From: Clostridia bacterium
GTDB lineage: Bacteria; Bacillota; Clostridia; Oscillospirales; Acutalibacteraceae
Length of the DNA stretch: 32,063 nucleotides
Direction of reading: 5' to 3'
NCBI GenBank assembly: GCA_017517865.1
Contig: JAFWYB010000062.1
Coordinates: 1-32,063, forward strand
Part shown: positions 2,910 to 12,541 of the stretch, in pieces
Position numbering within the stretch: the first letter of the stretch is position 1
How the letters are laid out: each line of letters opens with the position of its first letter
Position numbers and translations under genes: made by a program
The notes under the pieces: generated by a model
What the model was told of the DNA's origin: nothing
Seen by the model: only the letters and a program-made list of their open reading frames with translations
Databases searched by the model: none

Positions 2910-5534
2910 TTACCTCCCCTTATTTTTTTCTGCCCTTGCGGCAGCCATATCCTGAATGCGGAACTTTATTTTATCTCTGTTTACAAGAACCGCTATTATC
3001 AAAAGCATTACTGCTATAACCAGCACAAGTATAACCGTTTCCGAGGGCATTCTGTTCCCGTCGTCGTAGGTTACCTCGGGAACATAACCGTCATCAATAA
3101 TCTCCTGCGAAATAACTCTCTCCGCAAAGAAGATGTTGAAAACCCACTCGAGAGTTTCGTCAACACTCATTGAGCTTATGTTATCGCTTATACCCTTGGC
3201 AAAGCTTGATACCATACTGTTGCCTCCGAGCTCACTGTCACCGACCAGATTAAGAATTATGCTGTCGTTACCGGGAAGCTTGATTGTTTCAACCGCATAT
3301 CTGAAAAGAGTAACCAGCACATCAGCCTTTGAAGAATTGACTGCATAAATTCTGATAGGCATACCGCCCTGAGTTCTCTTTGAGTCAACGGCAATAAGCT
3401 CTCCCATACCCTCGAACTGAGAAAGGTTTAGCTCAGCAAAATCGAAGTTTATTTCAAAGATTTGCGTAAGCTTTGCTATAAGAGAATTTACGTCAACATC
3501 CGTAAGCACAGAAAAATCTATCAGTCCTTCAAGACCCAGCTTACCCAGAATACTCATAACGGGGAAGATAATATTCTGTGCGCAGATGCTCAGACCGCCG
3601 TTGTTGAGGAAATACATAAGGTTGGGAAGAATTTCCGTAACCGTGTTTATAGGCTTATCCATTATTCTGTCAAGAAGCGAGAAAACCGAATCGAGAACAG
3701 GCCGTATTGCATCGCCGTTTGCAATCTTTTTAAGATACTCAGCATAGCTGAGGATGTCTTCGCCGTAAATACCGAGCGCCTCAAGAAGAGGTATTACAGC
3801 CGTGTTGTAGCCGTCACTGCCGTAAAAATCAACCGAGCCGAGAAGAGAAATCTTTTCGCCTGCAAGAAGCATTCTGAATATTCCGTCTGCCGGTCTTAGC
3901 ATAGCTGTTACAGCATTGATAAAGCCCTCTTTATCTCCGTCCTCGAAGCCCCAGTCAAGAGCATCCTTGTTTGCATACTCCCACGAGCTGAGATTTGCAA
4001 GCTGACCCGCAACAACGCTGAACTGCTCCTCCGTAAGTGTCTCGGCAACAGAACAGGGTGCAAAATCAACACCGAGAAGCTCGACAAACCTATTTACATC
4101 ATCACTCTGGAGAAGCTTGTATACCTCAAGTGCCAGCCCGCTCAGAAATGAGTTCGAATAAATGGCCGGCTCAAGCAATTCTCTCAGTGTCTTGTATTCG
4201 CCCATCTCTGCAACAAACTGATCTACAAGAACATCTGCCTGTTCAATAGCTCTGTCAAAGTCTTCCTTTGTAAGATTCTGAGTATACTTGACCGAATTAT
4301 CTCTGAGCTTTGAGAAGCGCCACTGATAGTTATTTATCTCTCCGCCCTCAGAAGCAAGTATATTTACAAGCATGGAAATAATCTCGTCGGTGGGCTTTGC
4401 AAGAAGATTTGCCGTTACCGAATTGATATCAACCGTACCCATATCTGCAGTGTTTGAAGCGATAAGGCTCATTATTGCGCCCTGATTAAGCTTTGCGGTT
4501 TCAATAATCCACCTAAGAAGCTCAATATAAACATCGCCCTTTCGCGGAGTCACTCTGTTACCCTCAACCGTGCCGCAGGATGCAAAGGTATCAAGATCAA
4601 GAGGTGCTGTTTTGAAATCAGCAAGTGAAATATTACCCAAATCAAGGTTAAGACTCATACCGCCCTCAAGAGAGCCTAAGTCAACAAAGGAATCCACCTT
4701 GAGAAGAGGAATACCCATAACCGATATTCTCATCGGAGCCATAAGCTCTGAAATTGCCGCCTCAAGGCCGCCGTTGTTTATAAAATATGCTATGCTCGGC
4801 AGATTTTCCGTAAGCATTTTTGCCGGTGCATCAAGAATTCTTTCAATATAGCTGAGCAAATCAAGCACAACGTTTCTTATCATAAGGTGTCTGTCTGTAG
4901 CCGCCTGAGCATAAAACTCTTCCGGGCTCATATAGTCGGTACAGCCGAGACTTTTGAATATAGGTATAATTGCCGTTTCATAGCCCCTTGCACCGGTTAT
5001 GCCGACAAGCGTACCGATAATGGGATAAGTACCTCCGCAGACCAGAGCATAAATAAGAGAATTCAGCGGTCCGAAAACAGCACTTAAGGCAACTGCAAAG
5101 CCTCTTTTGCCGGTTACCCCCCACTTTACACCGTCAAGGTTAACCTGACTCCAGGAGCTGTATGACGAAAGCCTTGCACTTACATCGGGGTATACGCTCA
5201 GATATGAAGCAAGGTCGCTTACGCTTATTTTAAGGCCAAGGGAAGAAATGCTTTCTCCGTTTGCCTCAAGAGCCTTGTAAACCTCAAGCATAATAAGTGA
5301 AACTACCTCGTCAGAGCAGAGCTCGGGCATAACTATATCCCTGAGTGATGTATCCGCAAGGTGTGTAAGAAGTCCGTTTATAAGAGTATCTGTGCTGTCT
5401 ATGGCATTCTCGGCCTGAGCAGAAGTTACTCCCTCAGGGTAGGTAGTAGCCGATGCACCAATAGGCATAAGCGAAACACAAAGCAAAGCAACAACTAATA
5501 TACAGCTAAAAGCTTTTTTCATAAATCTGTTCAT
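2910..5534 (-). CDS. Membrane-anchored surface protein with a duplicated ~390-residue unit
   Basis: 874 residues, family not recognised. A signal peptide (basic N-terminus, hydrophobic to about residue 28, A-S-A cleavage region) and one C-terminal helix at about 833-851 followed by a basic tail predict an extracellular body anchored in the membrane with the C-terminus inside. The body is an internal duplication of about 50-400 and 430-800. Matching blocks are LEVYKALE (83) with LEVYKLLQ (469), GYETAIIPIFKSLG (184) with GYNTAVIPLLEALG (575), and LPSIAYFINNGGL (245) with LPNLMYFLNNGGL (636). No catalytic motif is apparent. AAGGAG lies 9 nt before the ATG at 5534. It is first in the operon with the MacB-like ABC gene, so it may be that transporter's extracellular partner, an inference from coupling and topology. 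Confidence 0.8.
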   Translation of the reverse strand: MNRFMKKAFSCILVVALLCVSLMPIGASATTYPEGVTSAQAENAIDSTDTLINGLLTHLADTSLRDIVMPELCSDEVVSLIMLEVYKALEANGESISSLGLKISVSDLASYLSVYPDVSARLSSYSSWSQVNLDGVKWGVTGKRGFAVALSAVFGPLNSLIYALVCGGTYPIIGTLVGITGARGYETAIIPIFKSLGCTDYMSPEEFYAQAATDRHLMIRNVVLDLLSYIERILDAPAKMLTENLPSIAYFINNGGLEAAISELMAPMRISVMGIPLLKVDSFVDLGSLEGGMSLNLDLGNISLADFKTAPLDLDTFASCGTVEGNRVTPRKGDVYIELLRWIIETAKLNQGAIMSLIASNTADMGTVDINSVTANLLAKPTDEIISMLVNILASEGGEINNYQWRFSKLRDNSVKYTQNLTKEDFDRAIEQADVLVDQFVAEMGEYKTLRELLEPAIYSNSFLSGLALEVYKLLQSDDVNRFVELLGVDFAPCSVAETLTEEQFSVVAGQLANLSSWEYANKDALDWGFEDGDKEGFINAVTAMLRPADGIFRMLLAGEKISLLGSVDFYGSDGYNTAVIPLLEALGIYGEDILSYAEYLKKIANGDAIRPVLDSVFSLLDRIMDKPINTVTEILPNLMYFLNNGGLSICAQNIIFPVMSILGKLGLEGLIDFSVLTDVDVNSLIAKLTQIFEINFDFAELNLSQFEGMGELIAVDSKRTQGGMPIRIYAVNSSKADVLVTLFRYAVETIKLPGNDSIILNLVGDSELGGNSMVSSFAKGISDNISSMSVDETLEWVFNIFFAERVISQEIIDDGYVPEVTYDDGNRMPSETVILVLVIAVMLLIIAVLVNRDKIKFRIQDMAAARAEKNKGR

Positions 5535-5766
5535 TCAGACTATCTCCTTAGTAATATTTATATCTAAACAGAGGTCTATTACTCCATATTAAAATAATAC
5601 TTATAGATATTAACACAAAGCCGTAAACATTTCAACGAGAAATTGTAAAATAGAGCGTTCTTTTTTACTATTTTAAAAAAATTTCATACTTAAACCAAAA
5701 TTCTTTCGAATATGCACTGCATCCCGGAATTTATTCTGATCTCGGGGAATATTTCGCTTTGCCGTG
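5535..5766. other. Intergenic DNA upstream of the surface-protein operon
   Basis: AT-rich stretch that must hold the leftward promoter for the gene starting at 5534. Several AT-rich hexamers could serve as -10 elements, but I see no convincing paired -35/-10 set and make no promoter call. There is no credible coding region: frames that remain open here continue into the GC-rich junction element and lack a ribosome binding site. Confidence 0.5.
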
Positions 5767-5795
5767 TTGACAAATATCGGCAACGGGAATATAAT
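5767..5795 (+). promoter_or_regulatory. Consensus sigma-A promoter of the marR-ABC operon
   Basis: TTGACA at 5767-5772, a 17-bp spacer and TATAAT at 5790-5795: both hexamers and the spacing are exact consensus. Transcription should start near 5801-5803. This puts the MarR-like inverted repeat at the start site and the four-way-junction element inside a leader of about 195 nt. A promoter this strong suits an operon held off by its own repressor. Confidence 0.85.
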
Positions 5796-5805
5796 ATAAA
5801 AGTTC

Positions 5806-5815
5806 GTTGGCTAAC
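5806..5815. promoter_or_regulatory. Candidate MarR operator at the start site
   Basis: GTTGGCTAAC is a 10-bp inverted repeat in which all but one symmetric pair match. It resembles the TTAG/CTAA-type sites bound by many MarR repressors and sits directly after the predicted start, where binding would block initiation or clearance. It is assigned to the MarR protein encoded at 5999 by position only. Confidence 0.45.
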
Positions 5816-5835
5816 AATTAAAGCTTGCGGAGATC

Positions 5836-5951
5836 GGCGGCGGCTCCCGTCACAAAGCAACCGCAGGTTGCTTTGTGCTTTACGGGCTGCCTTCGCAGCC
5901 CGTAAAGGCAAGGGGCGCGCGAAAGCGCTCCCCTTGCCGGGAGCCGCCGCT
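5836..5951. repeat. GC-rich four-way-junction element in the marR leader
   Basis: Four stems account for nearly every base. The closing stem pairs 5837-5849 with 5938-5950 (13 bp, perfect) plus a G-T pair at 5836/5951. Inside are three contiguous hairpins: 5851-5862 with 5866-5877 (12 bp), 5878-5890 with 5895-5907 (13 bp, CTTC loop) and 5908-5920 with 5925-5937 (13 positions, one mismatch, GAAA tetraloop). Only base 5850 is unpaired at the junction. It is much richer in GC than its surroundings, has no T-run and encodes nothing convincing. It may be a mobile palindromic repeat or a folded leader RNA; the sequence alone does not decide. Confidence 0.8.
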
Positions 5952-5998
5952 CCTCACCGTTTCATCCGCCCCATCCCTCACGCCGTAAAGGAGGCACT

Positions 5999-6445
5999 AT
6001 GAACAACAGAAAACTCGGCTTTGAAATTCATAAAACCGCCCGTCTTACAAAGCGGTATATGGATTCAGACGCCTCAAAAAGCTATGCCGATAAAATAACC
6101 GGCACCCACGGTTGGGCAATAGGCTATCTTTACCACAACCGTGACAAAGATATTTTTCAGAAGGACTTTGAGCAGGAATTCAACATACGGCGCTCAACAG
6201 CCAGCTCAATTCTCTCACTGATGGAAAAAAACGGACTTATAAAGCGTGAAAGTGTAGATTACGATGCAAGACTCAAAAAAATCACGCTCACGCAAAAGGC
6301 AATAGACATACAGCTCCCCGTTGAAACCGCGTTTGACCGCTTTGAAAATATGCTAAAGCAAAACATAAGTGAAGATGAGCTGAATGTTTTTTTCACCGTG
6401 CTTGATAAAATCAACCGAAATACAGAAAGGAGCGATACTGAATGA
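5999..6445 (+). CDS. MarR-family transcriptional regulator
   Basis: 148 residues, normal for MarR. The winged helix-turn-helix covers about 35-100: the recognition helix is near 64-80 (RRSTASSILSLMEKNGLI) and the wing near 86-98 carries the family-typical D-x-R-x-K-x-I-x-L-T pattern. Flanking helices would form the dimer interface. AAGGAGG lies 4-5 nt before the ATG. The stop overlaps the next gene's start by 4 bp (ATGA), so the regulator is translated with the exporter subunits. The arrangement predicts a ligand-responsive repressor of its own operon, relieved by compounds the exporter removes. The ligand cannot be read from the sequence. Confidence 0.9.
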   Translation: MNNRKLGFEIHKTARLTKRYMDSDASKSYADKITGTHGWAIGYLYHNRDKDIFQKDFEQEFNIRRSTASSILSLMEKNGLIKRESVDYDARLKKITLTQKAIDIQLPVETAFDRFENMLKQNISEDELNVFFTVLDKINRNTERSDTE

Positions 6446-8184
6446 TCAAACGGCTTTCGGCATGCATAAGGGAATATAAGCTTCCCTCTTTACTTTCACC
6501 TGTTTTTGTTTCACTTGAGGTTGTTATGGAGGTGTTCATACCTCTTCTGATGGGCAAACTCATTGATAACGGCATCGAAAAAGGTGACAGCAGCTATGTT
6601 CTTAAGGTAGGCGCACTACTCGTTGTTATTTGTCTTCTCAGCCTTTTCTTCGGTGTTGCGGCAGGTACCTACGCCTCAAAGGCATCGGCGGGCTTTGCAA
6701 AGAATCTGCGCCGCGATATGTTTCACAACATACAGACCTTTTCTTTCGCAAGCATAGACAAATTCTCCTCTTCAGGACTTGTTACAAGACTTACCACTGA
6801 TGTTACAAGCCTGCAGAATGCTTATCAGATGATAATACGTATTGCGGTGCGCTCACCTGCAATGCTTATCTTCTCTCTTTCAATGGCACTGAGCATAAAT
6901 GCAAAGCTTAGCCTTATTTTCGTCTGCATAATTCCCCTTCTCGGTGCCGGACTTGCCTTTATCGTCTCAAAAGCGCACCCGGTTTTCAAGAGAATGTTCA
7001 AGGTTTACGACAAACTCAACACAGTTGTTAACGAAAATCTTCACGGCATAAGGGTTGTAAAGGCCTTCGTAAGAGAAAATGAAGAGGAAAAGAAATTCCG
7101 CGGTGTTTCTCAAACAATTTACAAGCTTTCCAAAAAGGCTGAATTCTATCTTTCCTATAACGCCCCTCTTATGCAGATAAGCTCCTATACCGCTATGCTT
7201 CTTATTGCCTGGGTTGGTGCAAAGCTTATAGTCAGCTCAGGTGAAACCGAGCTGACAACAGGTGAGCTTACCTCTGTCATTTCCTACACGATGCAGATTC
7301 TTTCCACGCTTATGATGCTTTCAATGATTTTCGTTATGCTTACTATGTCACGTGCAGCAGGCGAAAGAATATGTGAGGTCCTTGATGAAAAAAGCGACCT
7401 TATCTCTCCCGAAAGCCCCGTTACACAGGTCAGAGACGGCAGTATCGATTTCGAAAACGTAGGCTTCAGCTATTCGGGAGATAAGGAAAAGCTTTGTCTT
7501 AAAAACGTGAATATCCACATAGAAAGCGGAGAAACCGTAGGAATTATCGGTTCGACCGGCTCTTCAAAAACATCGCTCATTCAGCTCATTTCCCGACTTT
7601 ACGATGTCACTGAGGGTACCCTTAAGGTAGGCGGAGTAAACGTTAAGGAATATGACCTTGATGTTCTCAGAAGAAGTGTTGCAACCGTACTTCAGAAGAA
7701 CGTTCTTTTCTCCGGAACCGTAAAGGAAAATCTCCGTTGGGGCAACGAAAACGCCACCGACGAGGAGCTTACAGAGGCCTGTACTCTCGCTCAGGCAGAC
7801 TCCTTCATAAGAGAGCTTCCCGAGGGCTACGACACCTTTATCGAGCAGGGCGGCACCAACGTTTCCGGCGGACAGAAGCAGAGAATCTGTATTGCACGTT
7901 CACTTCTGCAAAGGCCAAAGATTCTTATTCTCGACGACTCAACGAGTGCTGTTGACACCAAAACCGATGCACTTATAAGAAAAGGCTTTAAAGAATACAT
8001 CCCCGAAACAACAAAAATCATTATCGCTCAGAGAATATCCTCCATTGAGGCTGCCGATAAGATAATCGTTCTTGACGGCGGTGAAGTATCAGGCTTCGGT
8101 ACTCACAGTGAGCTTATAGCCTCAAATGAAATTTATAGGGATGTTTATTATTCACAGCAGAAGGGAGGAAAAGAAAATGAGTGA
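6442..8184 (+). CDS. Heterodimeric ABC exporter, degenerate-site subunit
   Basis: 580 residues: six-helix exporter domain (about 15-310) then an ATPase. The ATP site is degenerate. Walker A is GSTGSSKT (370-377), with serine for the usual last glycine; the catalytic glutamate after Walker B is aspartate (LDDS, D499); the H-switch histidine is glutamine (Q530). Its signature VSGGQ (474-478) is intact and would complete the partner's functional site. This is the pattern of the LmrC/BmrC/TM287-type half of asymmetric multidrug exporters. AGGAG precedes the ATG, which overlaps the marR stop by 4 bp. The partner gene starts within its last codons. Likely substrates are drugs or other amphipathic compounds, by family only. 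Confidence 0.9.
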   Translation: MIKRLSACIREYKLPSLLSPVFVSLEVVMEVFIPLLMGKLIDNGIEKGDSSYVLKVGALLVVICLLSLFFGVAAGTYASKASAGFAKNLRRDMFHNIQTFSFASIDKFSSSGLVTRLTTDVTSLQNAYQMIIRIAVRSPAMLIFSLSMALSINAKLSLIFVCIIPLLGAGLAFIVSKAHPVFKRMFKVYDKLNTVVNENLHGIRVVKAFVRENEEEKKFRGVSQTIYKLSKKAEFYLSYNAPLMQISSYTAMLLIAWVGAKLIVSSGETELTTGELTSVISYTMQILSTLMMLSMIFVMLTMSRAAGERICEVLDEKSDLISPESPVTQVRDGSIDFENVGFSYSGDKEKLCLKNVNIHIESGETVGIIGSTGSSKTSLIQLISRLYDVTEGTLKVGGVNVKEYDLDVLRRSVATVLQKNVLFSGTVKENLRWGNENATDEELTEACTLAQADSFIRELPEGYDTFIEQGGTNVSGGQKQRICIARSLLQRPKILILDDSTSAVDTKTDALIRKGFKEYIPETTKIIIAQRISSIEAADKIIVLDGGEVSGFGTHSELIASNEIYRDVYYSQQKGGKENE

Positions 8185-10162
8185 TAATATGAAAAAGATT
8201 CCTCCTAAGATGCCGCCGAAAATGCCTCCCAACCGTCACGGCGGAGTCCCGATGAAAATTGAAGGTATGAAGCTTGACCCAAAGGTAATAAAGAGAATTT
8301 TCTCATATATGAGCAAAAAGCACATCGTGCTTCTGCTTTGCGTTGTGGCCTGCATTTTTCTTTCGAGCCTCGCAAACGTCTATTCTTCTTTATTTTTAGA
8401 GGACCTTATCGACGGATATATAAAGCCTATGCTTCTGAACGGCTCAGACGATTTCAGCGGGCTTCTCAGTATGCTGCTTCGTATGGCAGGCCTTTTCGCC
8501 CTGGGTATTGTTGCTACCTTTACCTATAACAGAATTATGGTTGTTGTGGCTCAGGGCGTGCTTAAAAAGGTAAGAGACGAAATGTTCACCCATATGCAGA
8601 GCTTGCCGATAAAGTATTTTGACACCAACAGTCACGGCGATATTATGAGCCGATACACAAACGATATTGATACTCTCAGACAGATGATTTCTCAGACAGT
8701 GCCCCAGGTTATTTCCTCGGCAGTAACTATCGTTGTCACCTTTACGGCTATGGTTACCTCAAGCATACCTCTGACCTCGGTTGTAATAATCTGCGTTGCA
8801 TTTATGCTGTTCTTCACAGGCAAAATTGCCTCACAAAGCGGAAAATTCTTTATGAAGCAGCAGGATGCTCTCGGCGATGTCAACGGATATATAGAAGAAA
8901 TGATGACGGGTCAGAAGGTTATCAAGGTTTTCTGCCGTGAGGACAAAACCAAGGAGATCTTTGACGAGAAGAACGAGGAGCTTTACCGCAACGCCTTCTC
9001 AGCCAACAAGTTTGTAAATATGCTCGGTCCGATAAATAACAATCTTGGTCATTTACAGTATGTTATTCTTGCAATTGCCGGCTGCTTCCTTGCCATTCTT
9101 ACCGCCGCAGGGAAATTCCCCGAAAGCGGCTTTATGAGCATTTTTACCATAAGCGCGGGCACAGTTGTCGCCTTTCTCCAGCTTTCAAGGTCTTTCACAA
9201 TGCCCGTAAACCAGATTTCCCAGCAGATGAACTCTGTTGTTATGGCTATGGCAGGCGCAAAGAGAATTTTTGATGTTATAGACGAGGAAAGTGAAGCTGA
9301 CGAAGGTTACGTAAGTCTTGTCAATGCAAAATACGGCGATAACGGTGAAATAACCGAAACCGCTGAGCACACAGGTCTCTGGGCTTGGAAACATCCCCAC
9401 GAGGACGGCACAACAACCTATACTAAGCTTGAGGGAGAGGTACGCTTCTTCGACGTTGATTTCGGCTACAATGAAGAAAAAATTGTTCTTCACAACATCA
9501 GCCTTTACGCCGAGCCCGGGCAGAAGGTTGCCTTCGTAGGCTCAACGGGTGCAGGTAAAACCACAATAACAAACCTTATCAACCGCTTCTATGATATAGC
9601 AGACGGTAAAATACGCTATGACGGTATAAACATTAACAAAATAAAAAAGAGCGACCTTCGCCGCTCACTCGGTATTGTTCTTCAGGATACCAACCTGTTT
9701 ACAGGTACAGTAAAGGAAAATATCCGCTACGGCAACCTTGATGCCACCGACGAGCAGATTATAGAGGCAGCAAAGCTTGCCAATGCCCATTCCTTTATTT
9801 CAAGACTGCCTCAAGGCTACGATACCTTGCTTACAAACAACGGCGCAAACCTTTCTCAGGGTCAACGACAGCTTATTTCAATTGCCCGAGCCGCTGTTGC
9901 CGACCCGCCGGTTATGATTCTTGACGAGGCAACCTCCTCTATTGATACCCGTACCGAAGCTCTTGTGCAAAAGGGTATGGATGCTCTTATGAAGGGCCGA
10001 ACCGTATTCGTTATCGCTCACCGCCTTTCAACGGTTATGAATTCCGACGTTATAATGGTTCTCGAAAAGGGGGTCATAATTGAAAGGGGTACTCACGAGG
10101 ACCTTATTGCAAAAAAGGGCAAATACTATCAGCTTTATACCGGTGCCTTTGAGCTGGAATAA
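8177..10162 (+). CDS. Heterodimeric ABC exporter, catalytic-site subunit
   Basis: 661 residues from the ATG at 8177, chosen because GGGAGG sits 8 nt upstream; an in-frame start at 8126 would lie inside the previous gene. The N-terminus is proline-rich (KIPPKMPPKMPP). Six membrane helices span about 45-350. A ~45-residue insertion (about 371-417) separates them from the ATPase, as in LmrD-like proteins. Walker A GSTGAGKT (455-462), Walker B with catalytic E584 and H-switch H615 are intact, but the signature is LSQGQ (559-563) instead of LSGGQ. That altered signature would face the degenerate Walker site of the upstream subunit, so the two chains complement exactly as in a heterodimer. A terminator follows the stop at once. 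Confidence 0.92.
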   Translation: MSDNMKKIPPKMPPKMPPNRHGGVPMKIEGMKLDPKVIKRIFSYMSKKHIVLLLCVVACIFLSSLANVYSSLFLEDLIDGYIKPMLLNGSDDFSGLLSMLLRMAGLFALGIVATFTYNRIMVVVAQGVLKKVRDEMFTHMQSLPIKYFDTNSHGDIMSRYTNDIDTLRQMISQTVPQVISSAVTIVVTFTAMVTSSIPLTSVVIICVAFMLFFTGKIASQSGKFFMKQQDALGDVNGYIEEMMTGQKVIKVFCREDKTKEIFDEKNEELYRNAFSANKFVNMLGPINNNLGHLQYVILAIAGCFLAILTAAGKFPESGFMSIFTISAGTVVAFLQLSRSFTMPVNQISQQMNSVVMAMAGAKRIFDVIDEESEADEGYVSLVNAKYGDNGEITETAEHTGLWAWKHPHEDGTTTYTKLEGEVRFFDVDFGYNEEKIVLHNISLYAEPGQKVAFVGSTGAGKTTITNLINRFYDIADGKIRYDGININKIKKSDLRRSLGIVLQDTNLFTGTVKENIRYGNLDATDEQIIEAAKLANAHSFISRLPQGYDTLLTNNGANLSQGQRQLISIARAAVADPPVMILDEATSSIDTRTEALVQKGMDALMKGRTVFVIAHRLSTVMNSDVIMVLEKGVIIERGTHEDLIAKKGKYYQLYTGAFELE

Positions 10163-12255: not shown

Positions 12256-12323
12256 GCCTGTCTGTGAATTTATTCCTTAAAAAGGTGCTTATATGCAGCC
12301 TTATATACACAAATTCAGTAAAG

Positions 12324-12364
12324 AAAAAAACTTTACAGCTGAAATTCAGCTGTAAAGTTTTTTT
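12324..12364. terminator. Strong bidirectional terminator
   Basis: An 18-bp perfect stem (12324-12341 with 12347-12364) begins with A7 and ends with T7, around the core CTTTACAGCTG. It ends rsmA 68 bp after its stop and can also end leftward transcripts from the lipoprotein gene that stops at 12562. Confidence 0.9.
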
Positions 12365-12365
12365 C

Positions 12366-12541
12366 TTACCTATGTGGAAAACCCGGTTAAAAATGTTAGT
12401 TTCCCTTGGTTTTTAACATCTGACCGGTCATTTCACAACTTTTCGGTGTTGAAAACTGACAAGTTTTTAACTTTACTAACAGAGTTTTGAACATTTTTGT
12501 TGAAAAGCTCTGTTGATTATTCATTATGCACTGATTTGTGC
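12366..12541. other. Noncoding repeat-rich island between convergent genes
   Basis: No coding region is supported. Three copies of GTTAAAAA occur (12386-12393 direct; 12410-12417 and 12464-12471 inverted). TGTGGAAAA at 12373-12381 is the complement of the DnaA-box variant TTTTCCACA, and TGTTGAAAA occurs at 12447-12455 and 12498-12506. There is a perfect palindrome TGACCGGTCA at 12421-12430 and a long imperfect hairpin at 12478-12514 (AACAGAG with CTCTGTT at its base) that has no T-run. The function is unknown. Confidence 0.5.

Follow-up and report, generated by a model that had tools for sequence, protein, structure and literature searches.

The four-way-junction element at positions 5836–5951 of the window, by which we mean the whole stretch of 32,063 nucleotides of a Clostridia bacterium contig analysed here, is on balance probably one copy of a genus-restricted, shape-conserved and dispersed DNA repeat family that is itself probably mobile, with the copy upstream of marR having been inserted there. 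Copies of the element are dispersed, share one architecture, combine a fixed closing stem with hairpin arms that change and stay paired, and are absent from orthologous marR leaders. Of the three proposals in the original prediction, namely a drug- or RNA-binding leader, a nuclease-resistant 5′ structure and a mobile palindromic repeat, the last fits best: the host genome has 20 copies at scattered places, and within the genus the family occurs patchily.

Fold of the element and search for copies

RNA folding of 5836–5951 yields a closing stem, in which 5836–5849 pairs with 5938–5951, around three hairpins (Table 1), with T5850 as the sole unpaired junction base, in agreement with the four-way junction originally proposed. 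All four stems had been put at 12–13 bp, which holds for the three hairpins (12, 13 and 12 bp) and not for the closing stem, which has 14 bp, nor had the single mismatch in the third hairpin been foreseen; the GAAA tetraloop is indeed there, on that same hairpin. The predicted RNA fold has an energy of −98.9 kcal/mol against −51.6 ± 3.9 in 200 shuffles (0 of 200 as stable; z −12), and DNA parameters give −64.4 kcal/mol (z −12.6) for a fold that differs from the RNA one just at the outermost pair. The element is, as stated at the outset, richer in GC than its flanks (0.68 versus 0.31 over 300 bases on its left and 0.46 over as many on its right). No Rfam 15 match at gathering score was found for the element, a tRNA elsewhere in the window being the sole match, and the four sub-threshold matches over 5700–6010 reach at best 29.1 bits for SraB versus a cut-off of 130; a known RNA family was rejected on these grounds.

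Table 1. Features of the marR leader and operon, with positions in the window
Feature	Position	Strand	Details	Basis
Sigma-70 type promoter TTGACA-17-TATAAT, marR-ABC operon	5767..5795	+	12/12 consensus positions	
MarR-operator-like motif GTTCGTTGGCTAACAA	5802..5817	+	left of element; candidate	read by eye
Closing stem, 5′ arm	5836..5849	+	family core GGCGGCTCC at 5839–5847	folding, pattern, covariation
Hairpin 1	5851..5877	+	12 bp, GCA loop	folding
Hairpin 2	5878..5907	+	13 bp, CTTC loop	folding
Hairpin 3	5908..5937	+	12 bp with one 1x1 mismatch, GAAA loop	folding
Closing stem, 3′ arm	5938..5951	+	family core GGAGCCGCC at 5940–5948	folding, pattern, covariation
Right flank, pyrimidine-rich	5952..5985	+		
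marR ribosome-binding site AAAGGAGG	5987..5994	+	outside four-way junction	
MarR family regulator gene, 148 aa	5999..6445	+	ATG at 5999	PF12802, 2.5e-10
Two ABC exporter half-transporter genes (ABC_membrane + ABC_tran)	6442..10162	+		

The family comprises 38 copies, 20 in the host genome, 14 in G024, two in G008 and one each in G007 and G020, the numbers outside the host being lower bounds (at least 18 in four species, at least 14 of them in G024). BLAST with the window copy recovered 2 of the 19 other host copies, both of them complete four-way junctions with unrelated hairpins. A pattern made from the closing stem only gave 18 host copies, and the pattern GGCGGCTCCN{70,100}GGAGCCGCC gave 29 matches in 5 of 34 genus genomes, with none for its reversed control. 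Covariance model R2 added two copies in the host and two in G024, and a shorter 14-base pattern another five in G024, eight matches of the latter pattern being set aside as chance because of low pairing. The final covariance-model search of the host returned 40 matches, that is, 20 places on two strands each, with the weakest at 76 bits; weaker or decayed host copies were not found down to E 0.1 (150 of 220 first-look candidates scored). The 20 host copies are spread over 15 contigs of a 2.69 Mb genome, and L078 and L054 (contig C42, positions 22618 and 18798) lie about 3.8 kb apart.

The element was found in 0 of the 29 remaining genus species, the copy numbers in its bearers being 20, 14, 2, 1 and 1. 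Covariance model R3, run with stricter filters on 150 family genomes, matched in the host and G008 alone, and the closing-stem pattern, run on 394 order genomes, matched the host and once in G126, the reversed control matching in nine genomes. Nothing outside the genus rises above the control, in searches that a family with a different closing stem could both escape. No phage match to 5700–6450 and no plasmid match to copy L046 was found, and the 39 matches in a pattern scan of viral contigs all fall within the 48 chance cases; a phage or plasmid origin was rejected for these reasons.

All 38 copies form a three-branch four-way junction with 80–91% of bases paired, and the unpaired junction bases number zero in 15 copies, one in 13, two in six and four to six in four. 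Since 34 of the 38 were collected by closing-stem patterns blind to the hairpins (the other four by covariance model), the 48 chance matches of the closing-stem pattern constitute a fair control: eight of these have a three-branch junction and none reaches 80% paired. The margin is narrow at its worst, with 79.6% for the best chance match and 80.0% for the G020 copy, in which the second hairpin is degenerate, so that pairing is not kept everywhere. Each copy can fold into the junction on either strand. Hairpin length is uniform within a species and differs between species, being about 13 bp in the host (means 12.9/12.8/12.5 bp) and 8–10 bp, with other sequences, in G024 (means 9.2/9.9/8.1 bp). 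Across the family the flanks lean to purines on the left and to pyrimidines on the right over some 10–20 bases, and going by this lean in composition the element may be somewhat longer than its core.

Closing stem and hairpin arms

Covariation was assessed on an alignment (A3) of 15 of the 18 host copies then known, with L044, L049 and L055, whose hairpins were misaligned by MAFFT, omitted. Here 11 of 12 pairs of the closing stem GGCGGCTCC/GGAGCCGCC are invariant, while 26 of 38 hairpin pairs are changed on both sides versus 12.0 in shuffles, and double-sided changed cells number 83 versus 21.7 (0 of 500 shuffles as high). Sliding the partner by one to three columns lowers pairing from 92.8% to 40–50%. 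A second alignment (A6), in which 34 of the 38 copies are represented and many of these by both strands, gives 916 versus 241 covarying cells, figures that are not independent of the fold, the alignment being fitted to the structure. The hairpin regions of two host copies have a median identity of 0.61, versus 0.50 for shuffled sequence. G-U pairs account for 22 of 1682 pairs (1.3%) and are equally rare on the opposite strand, with 19; other internal mismatches also number 19, and these low counts make pairing intermediates rare beside double changes. Their rarity fits arm-to-arm copying by template switching, which is argued for RNA hairpins in passages of PMC8794818, and a similar picture would arise if copies that lose their pairing were strongly selected against. 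Loop inversion, a possible trace of template switching, shows no excess (one pair observed, 2.4 expected) and was rejected as such.

Orthologous copies exist at a site shared by G008 and G020, where the flank is identical at 54/54 bases, the element at 77/95 and the adjoining hairpin at 13/32 columns, and where one pair of the last hairpin of the element is G-C in one copy and A-T in the other. Flanking the element at this site (copy L065 in G008, copy L064 in G020) are two more hairpins, whose arms differ almost wholly between the two species and are still well paired; hairpins at this place seem to be replaced far more quickly than the sequence around them. In copy L109 of G024 (about 461–554) the closing stem itself has changed, to GGTGGCTCAGG/CCTGAGCCACC, and is still paired, which suggests further families with other stems. 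A second, GGGAGAGGTGTCACGCAGTGACGGAGAGG-like repeat lies in the right flanks of four host copies (L051, L052, L059 and L048), and its inner hairpin likewise varies and stays paired (TCAC-GCA-GTGA versus TCC-GGA-GGA).

The marR leader and evidence for mobility

The exact consensus promoter had been predicted correctly, as had the position of the element between it and the marR ribosome-binding site, and the stated lack of a T-run agrees with our finding no terminator-like site in 5600–6010. In one predicted fold of 5801–6030, AAAGGAGG is partly and weakly paired with the right flank. A marR gene was detected in 27 other genus genomes, and for the 26 with E ≤ 3e-40, which we took as the strong set, every leader was read (an earlier set of 37 marR relatives had leaders read for four). 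None of the 26 leaders contains the element; they show a promoter, TTAG/CTAAC-type motifs and a short spacer to the start codon, the motifs standing at the position of GTTCGTTGGCTAACAA in most leaders, often twice. We read these motifs, from their sequence, as MarR operators. In the window leader the promoter is still there, as is a single motif of this type, and the space ahead of the ribosome-binding site is taken up by the element and its flanks; set beside the other leaders, this looks as though the element had been inserted between operator and ribosome-binding site. No exact empty site was found for the marR copy, and the exact ends of the insertion are unreadable because the nearest leader, that of a 77% identical protein, is too diverged. 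To one side of the operon, and divergent from it, a minus-strand gene for an 874-aa protein with no Pfam match at E 0.001 (2910–5534) adjoins a gene for an ABC-FtsX protein (160–2904).

These leaders bear directly on the idea that the marR exporter operon has a ligand- or RNA-binding leader of its own, an idea favoured by the place of the element between promoter and ribosome-binding site. With 26 of 26 other strong leaders lacking the element and 19 other host copies lying elsewhere, this marR-specific leader was rejected, and we hold it to be highly improbable; the original proposal of a drug- or RNA-binding leader is accordingly unsupported. The covariance-model check originally suggested had opposed dispersed copies, as a sign of a repeat family, to retention upstream of marR operons with compensatory changes, as a sign of a regulatory RNA: dispersed copies were found, and so were double-sided compensatory changes, and retention just at marR operons was not.

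Mobility of the family is likely rather than proven. In its favour, host flanks are largely unrelated, recent near-copies exist, copy number is uneven and orthologous marR leaders lack the element; against it stand the negative results for a target duplication, an exact empty site and a matching transposase in the two families searched. Copies L048 and L059 are 94% identical over their hairpins, with no similarity detected between their 300-bp flanks. The flanks of the 20 host sites are unrelated save for short matches and one stretch, a right flank of 63 bases at 84% shared by L051 and L059 alone. Flanking direct repeats of 3–8 bases at offsets 0–35 show no excess over permuted flanks, in a test that could miss a target-site duplication further out, the ends of the element being uncertain. 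Terminal inverted repeats are present as the closing stem GGCGGCTCC/GGAGCCGCC, but are part of the fold, with approximate ends. Two transposase profiles, PF01797 (Y1) and PF01548 (IS110), were searched in the genus. Y1_Tnp occurs in 21 of 34 genomes (2 of 5 bearers, 19 of 29 non-bearers) and IS110 in 1 of 5 bearers and 5 of 29 non-bearers, being absent from both copy-rich genomes; neither is associated with bearers, both were rejected as the obvious partner, and no autonomous relative of the element was found with these profiles. Within 12 nt of the closing stem of the 38 copies, GTAG occurs in three left and no right flanks and CGTC in no left and two right ones, with CTAC in no left and three right and GACG in three left and no right flanks. 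REP tags, being scattered, and target duplications were both rejected.

Competing explanations and known systems

If the family is a dispersed and probably mobile repeat, it would spread, or once have spread, within genomes as a non-autonomous element, with its closing stem read by sequence and its three hairpins by shape, the recognised form being folded single-stranded DNA or an extruded cruciform. We infer that the cruciform DNA form is what matters. The arms would stay complementary partly by copying of one arm from the other through template switching at hairpins and partly by loss of unpaired copies. The marR copy would have landed between promoter/operator and ribosome-binding site. If the promoter is used, the 5′ leader of the transcript would contain this copy as a very stable fold, with the Shine-Dalgarno site clear of the junction, and this would account for the insertion being tolerated. 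Consequences for the exporter, if there are any, would be a by-product, and the proposed nuclease-resistant 5′ structure, a possible side effect at this site, fails to account for the family. A bolder version, in which a class of mobile DNA is recognised by a Holliday-junction-like fold, with the closing stem as sole sequence tag and the arms free to evolve by arm copying, we put forward as a tentative possibility.

The idea that unrelated hairpins came together by chance, or that the assembly is at fault, can draw on single hairpins being common and on the draft state of the host and related assemblies, but hardly deserves belief next to 38 copies of one architecture in five independently assembled genomes and a fold z of −12. 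A host-selected chromosomal site, a DNA four-way junction that is not selfish and is bound by a protein sensing junctions or supercoiling (gyrase, HU, RuvA-like), would work in the gaps between transcription units, as has been suggested for REP/BIME elements. A crude scan for ORFs puts the copies between genes (six of the 38 are overlapped by mechanical ORFs, which look spurious or have starts too early), and the host copies lie on 15 contigs. By the same scan 10 of the 20 host copies sit between convergent genes, one of these, L045, being probably tandem; of the 36 copies that have a gene to either side, five, among them the marR copy, sit between divergent genes. In 36 flanks outside the host AAAAA outnumbers TTTTT 45 to 3, the A-runs pointing outward, which on sequence grounds suggests that a terminator faces the element from one side or from each, and is as expected of a site beside inward-facing terminators. 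In 40 host flanks, in contrast, the asymmetry is weak (27 versus 21). Elsewhere in the window (12321–12367), a 23-bp inverted repeat without mismatches, its arms one base apart and its ends marked by A/T runs, resembles a bidirectional terminator. Decayed copies were not found in the host, which also favours host selection, but the element is missing from 29 of 34 genus species, its copy number varies from 1 to 20 and nearly identical recent copies exist, and we regard a host-selected site as unlikely.

Somewhat less likely again is a family that acts mainly as RNA, a stable bidirectional fold shielding 3′ ends or blocking exonucleases, as has been proposed for transcribed REPs. Such a role would suit the very stable RNA fold, the double-sided changes and the many copies that follow a gene 3′ end; by eye, 11 of 15 classifiable host copies are oriented like the tandem pair or the nearest 3′-ending gene, a tally too small to exclude it. 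Against it, several copies lie beyond terminators and outside transcription units, G-U pairs are equally rare on either strand, the orientation of the G024 copies relative to genes looks mixed and no Rfam family matches at its gathering cut-off.

Sequence is the usual means of recognising palindromic repeats, whereas the dispersed repeats described here keep a precise shape, with three evenly long hairpins around a nearly gapless junction, while most of their sequence turns over, and ordinary repeat finders, as the BLAST result shows, therefore miss most of the family. Its orthologous and paralogous hairpins form a natural series for asking how perfect stems survive turnover, with selection and template switching as candidates, and they raise the question of whether some enzyme recognises a four-way junction in DNA as an element. 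Were shape-recognised mobile DNA of this kind to exist, it would imply an enzyme acting on perfect four-way junctions, in single-stranded or extruded DNA, so as to move or protect them. The family also serves as a warning that covariation in a leader does not prove a regulatory RNA.

In searches of the open-licence literature we came across no repeat in bacteria whose closing stem encloses three hairpins. Integron attC sites are recognised as folded single-stranded DNA, as is proposed here, and keep their structure while their sequence varies; they differ in being single imperfect hairpins tied to gene cassettes and an integrase. MITE and stem-loop repeat families are generally defined by sequence similarity along the unit, whereas ours is conserved in the closing stem alone, with no target duplication found. 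Our family is like ERIC, bcr1, NEMIS, YPAL and the 92 families of Cozzuto et al. 2008 (PMC2267715) in being dispersed and intergenic with a conserved predicted secondary structure. Hairpin repeats of mitochondria (Allomyces double-hairpin elements and sponge RHE), as presented in sections of PMC2800124, are likewise palindromic, spreading elements with complementary stem substitutions and double or multiple hairpins, but are organellar and have no fixed three-hairpin junction closed by a conserved stem. REP and REPIN sequences are described, in portions of PMC3733652 and PMC3116915, as GTAG- or CGTC-tagged extragenic palindromes mobilised by RAYT Y1 transposases, and our family resembles them as there characterised in being short, intergenic, dispersed, palindromic, non-autonomous and often at gene 3′ ends. 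The host alone has 20 such short, dispersed, extragenic palindromes; unlike REPs, which have one or two hairpins, the present family has three inside a closing stem that is conserved while the hairpins change, and it has neither a GTAG/CGTC tag beyond scattered occurrences nor an association with a Y1 transposase. Since the family showed neither the REP tag nor the transposase association and no target duplication was found, we class it with neither group: it works like REP/REPIN or MITE repeats and is best taken as a variant of the dispersed palindromic repeat.
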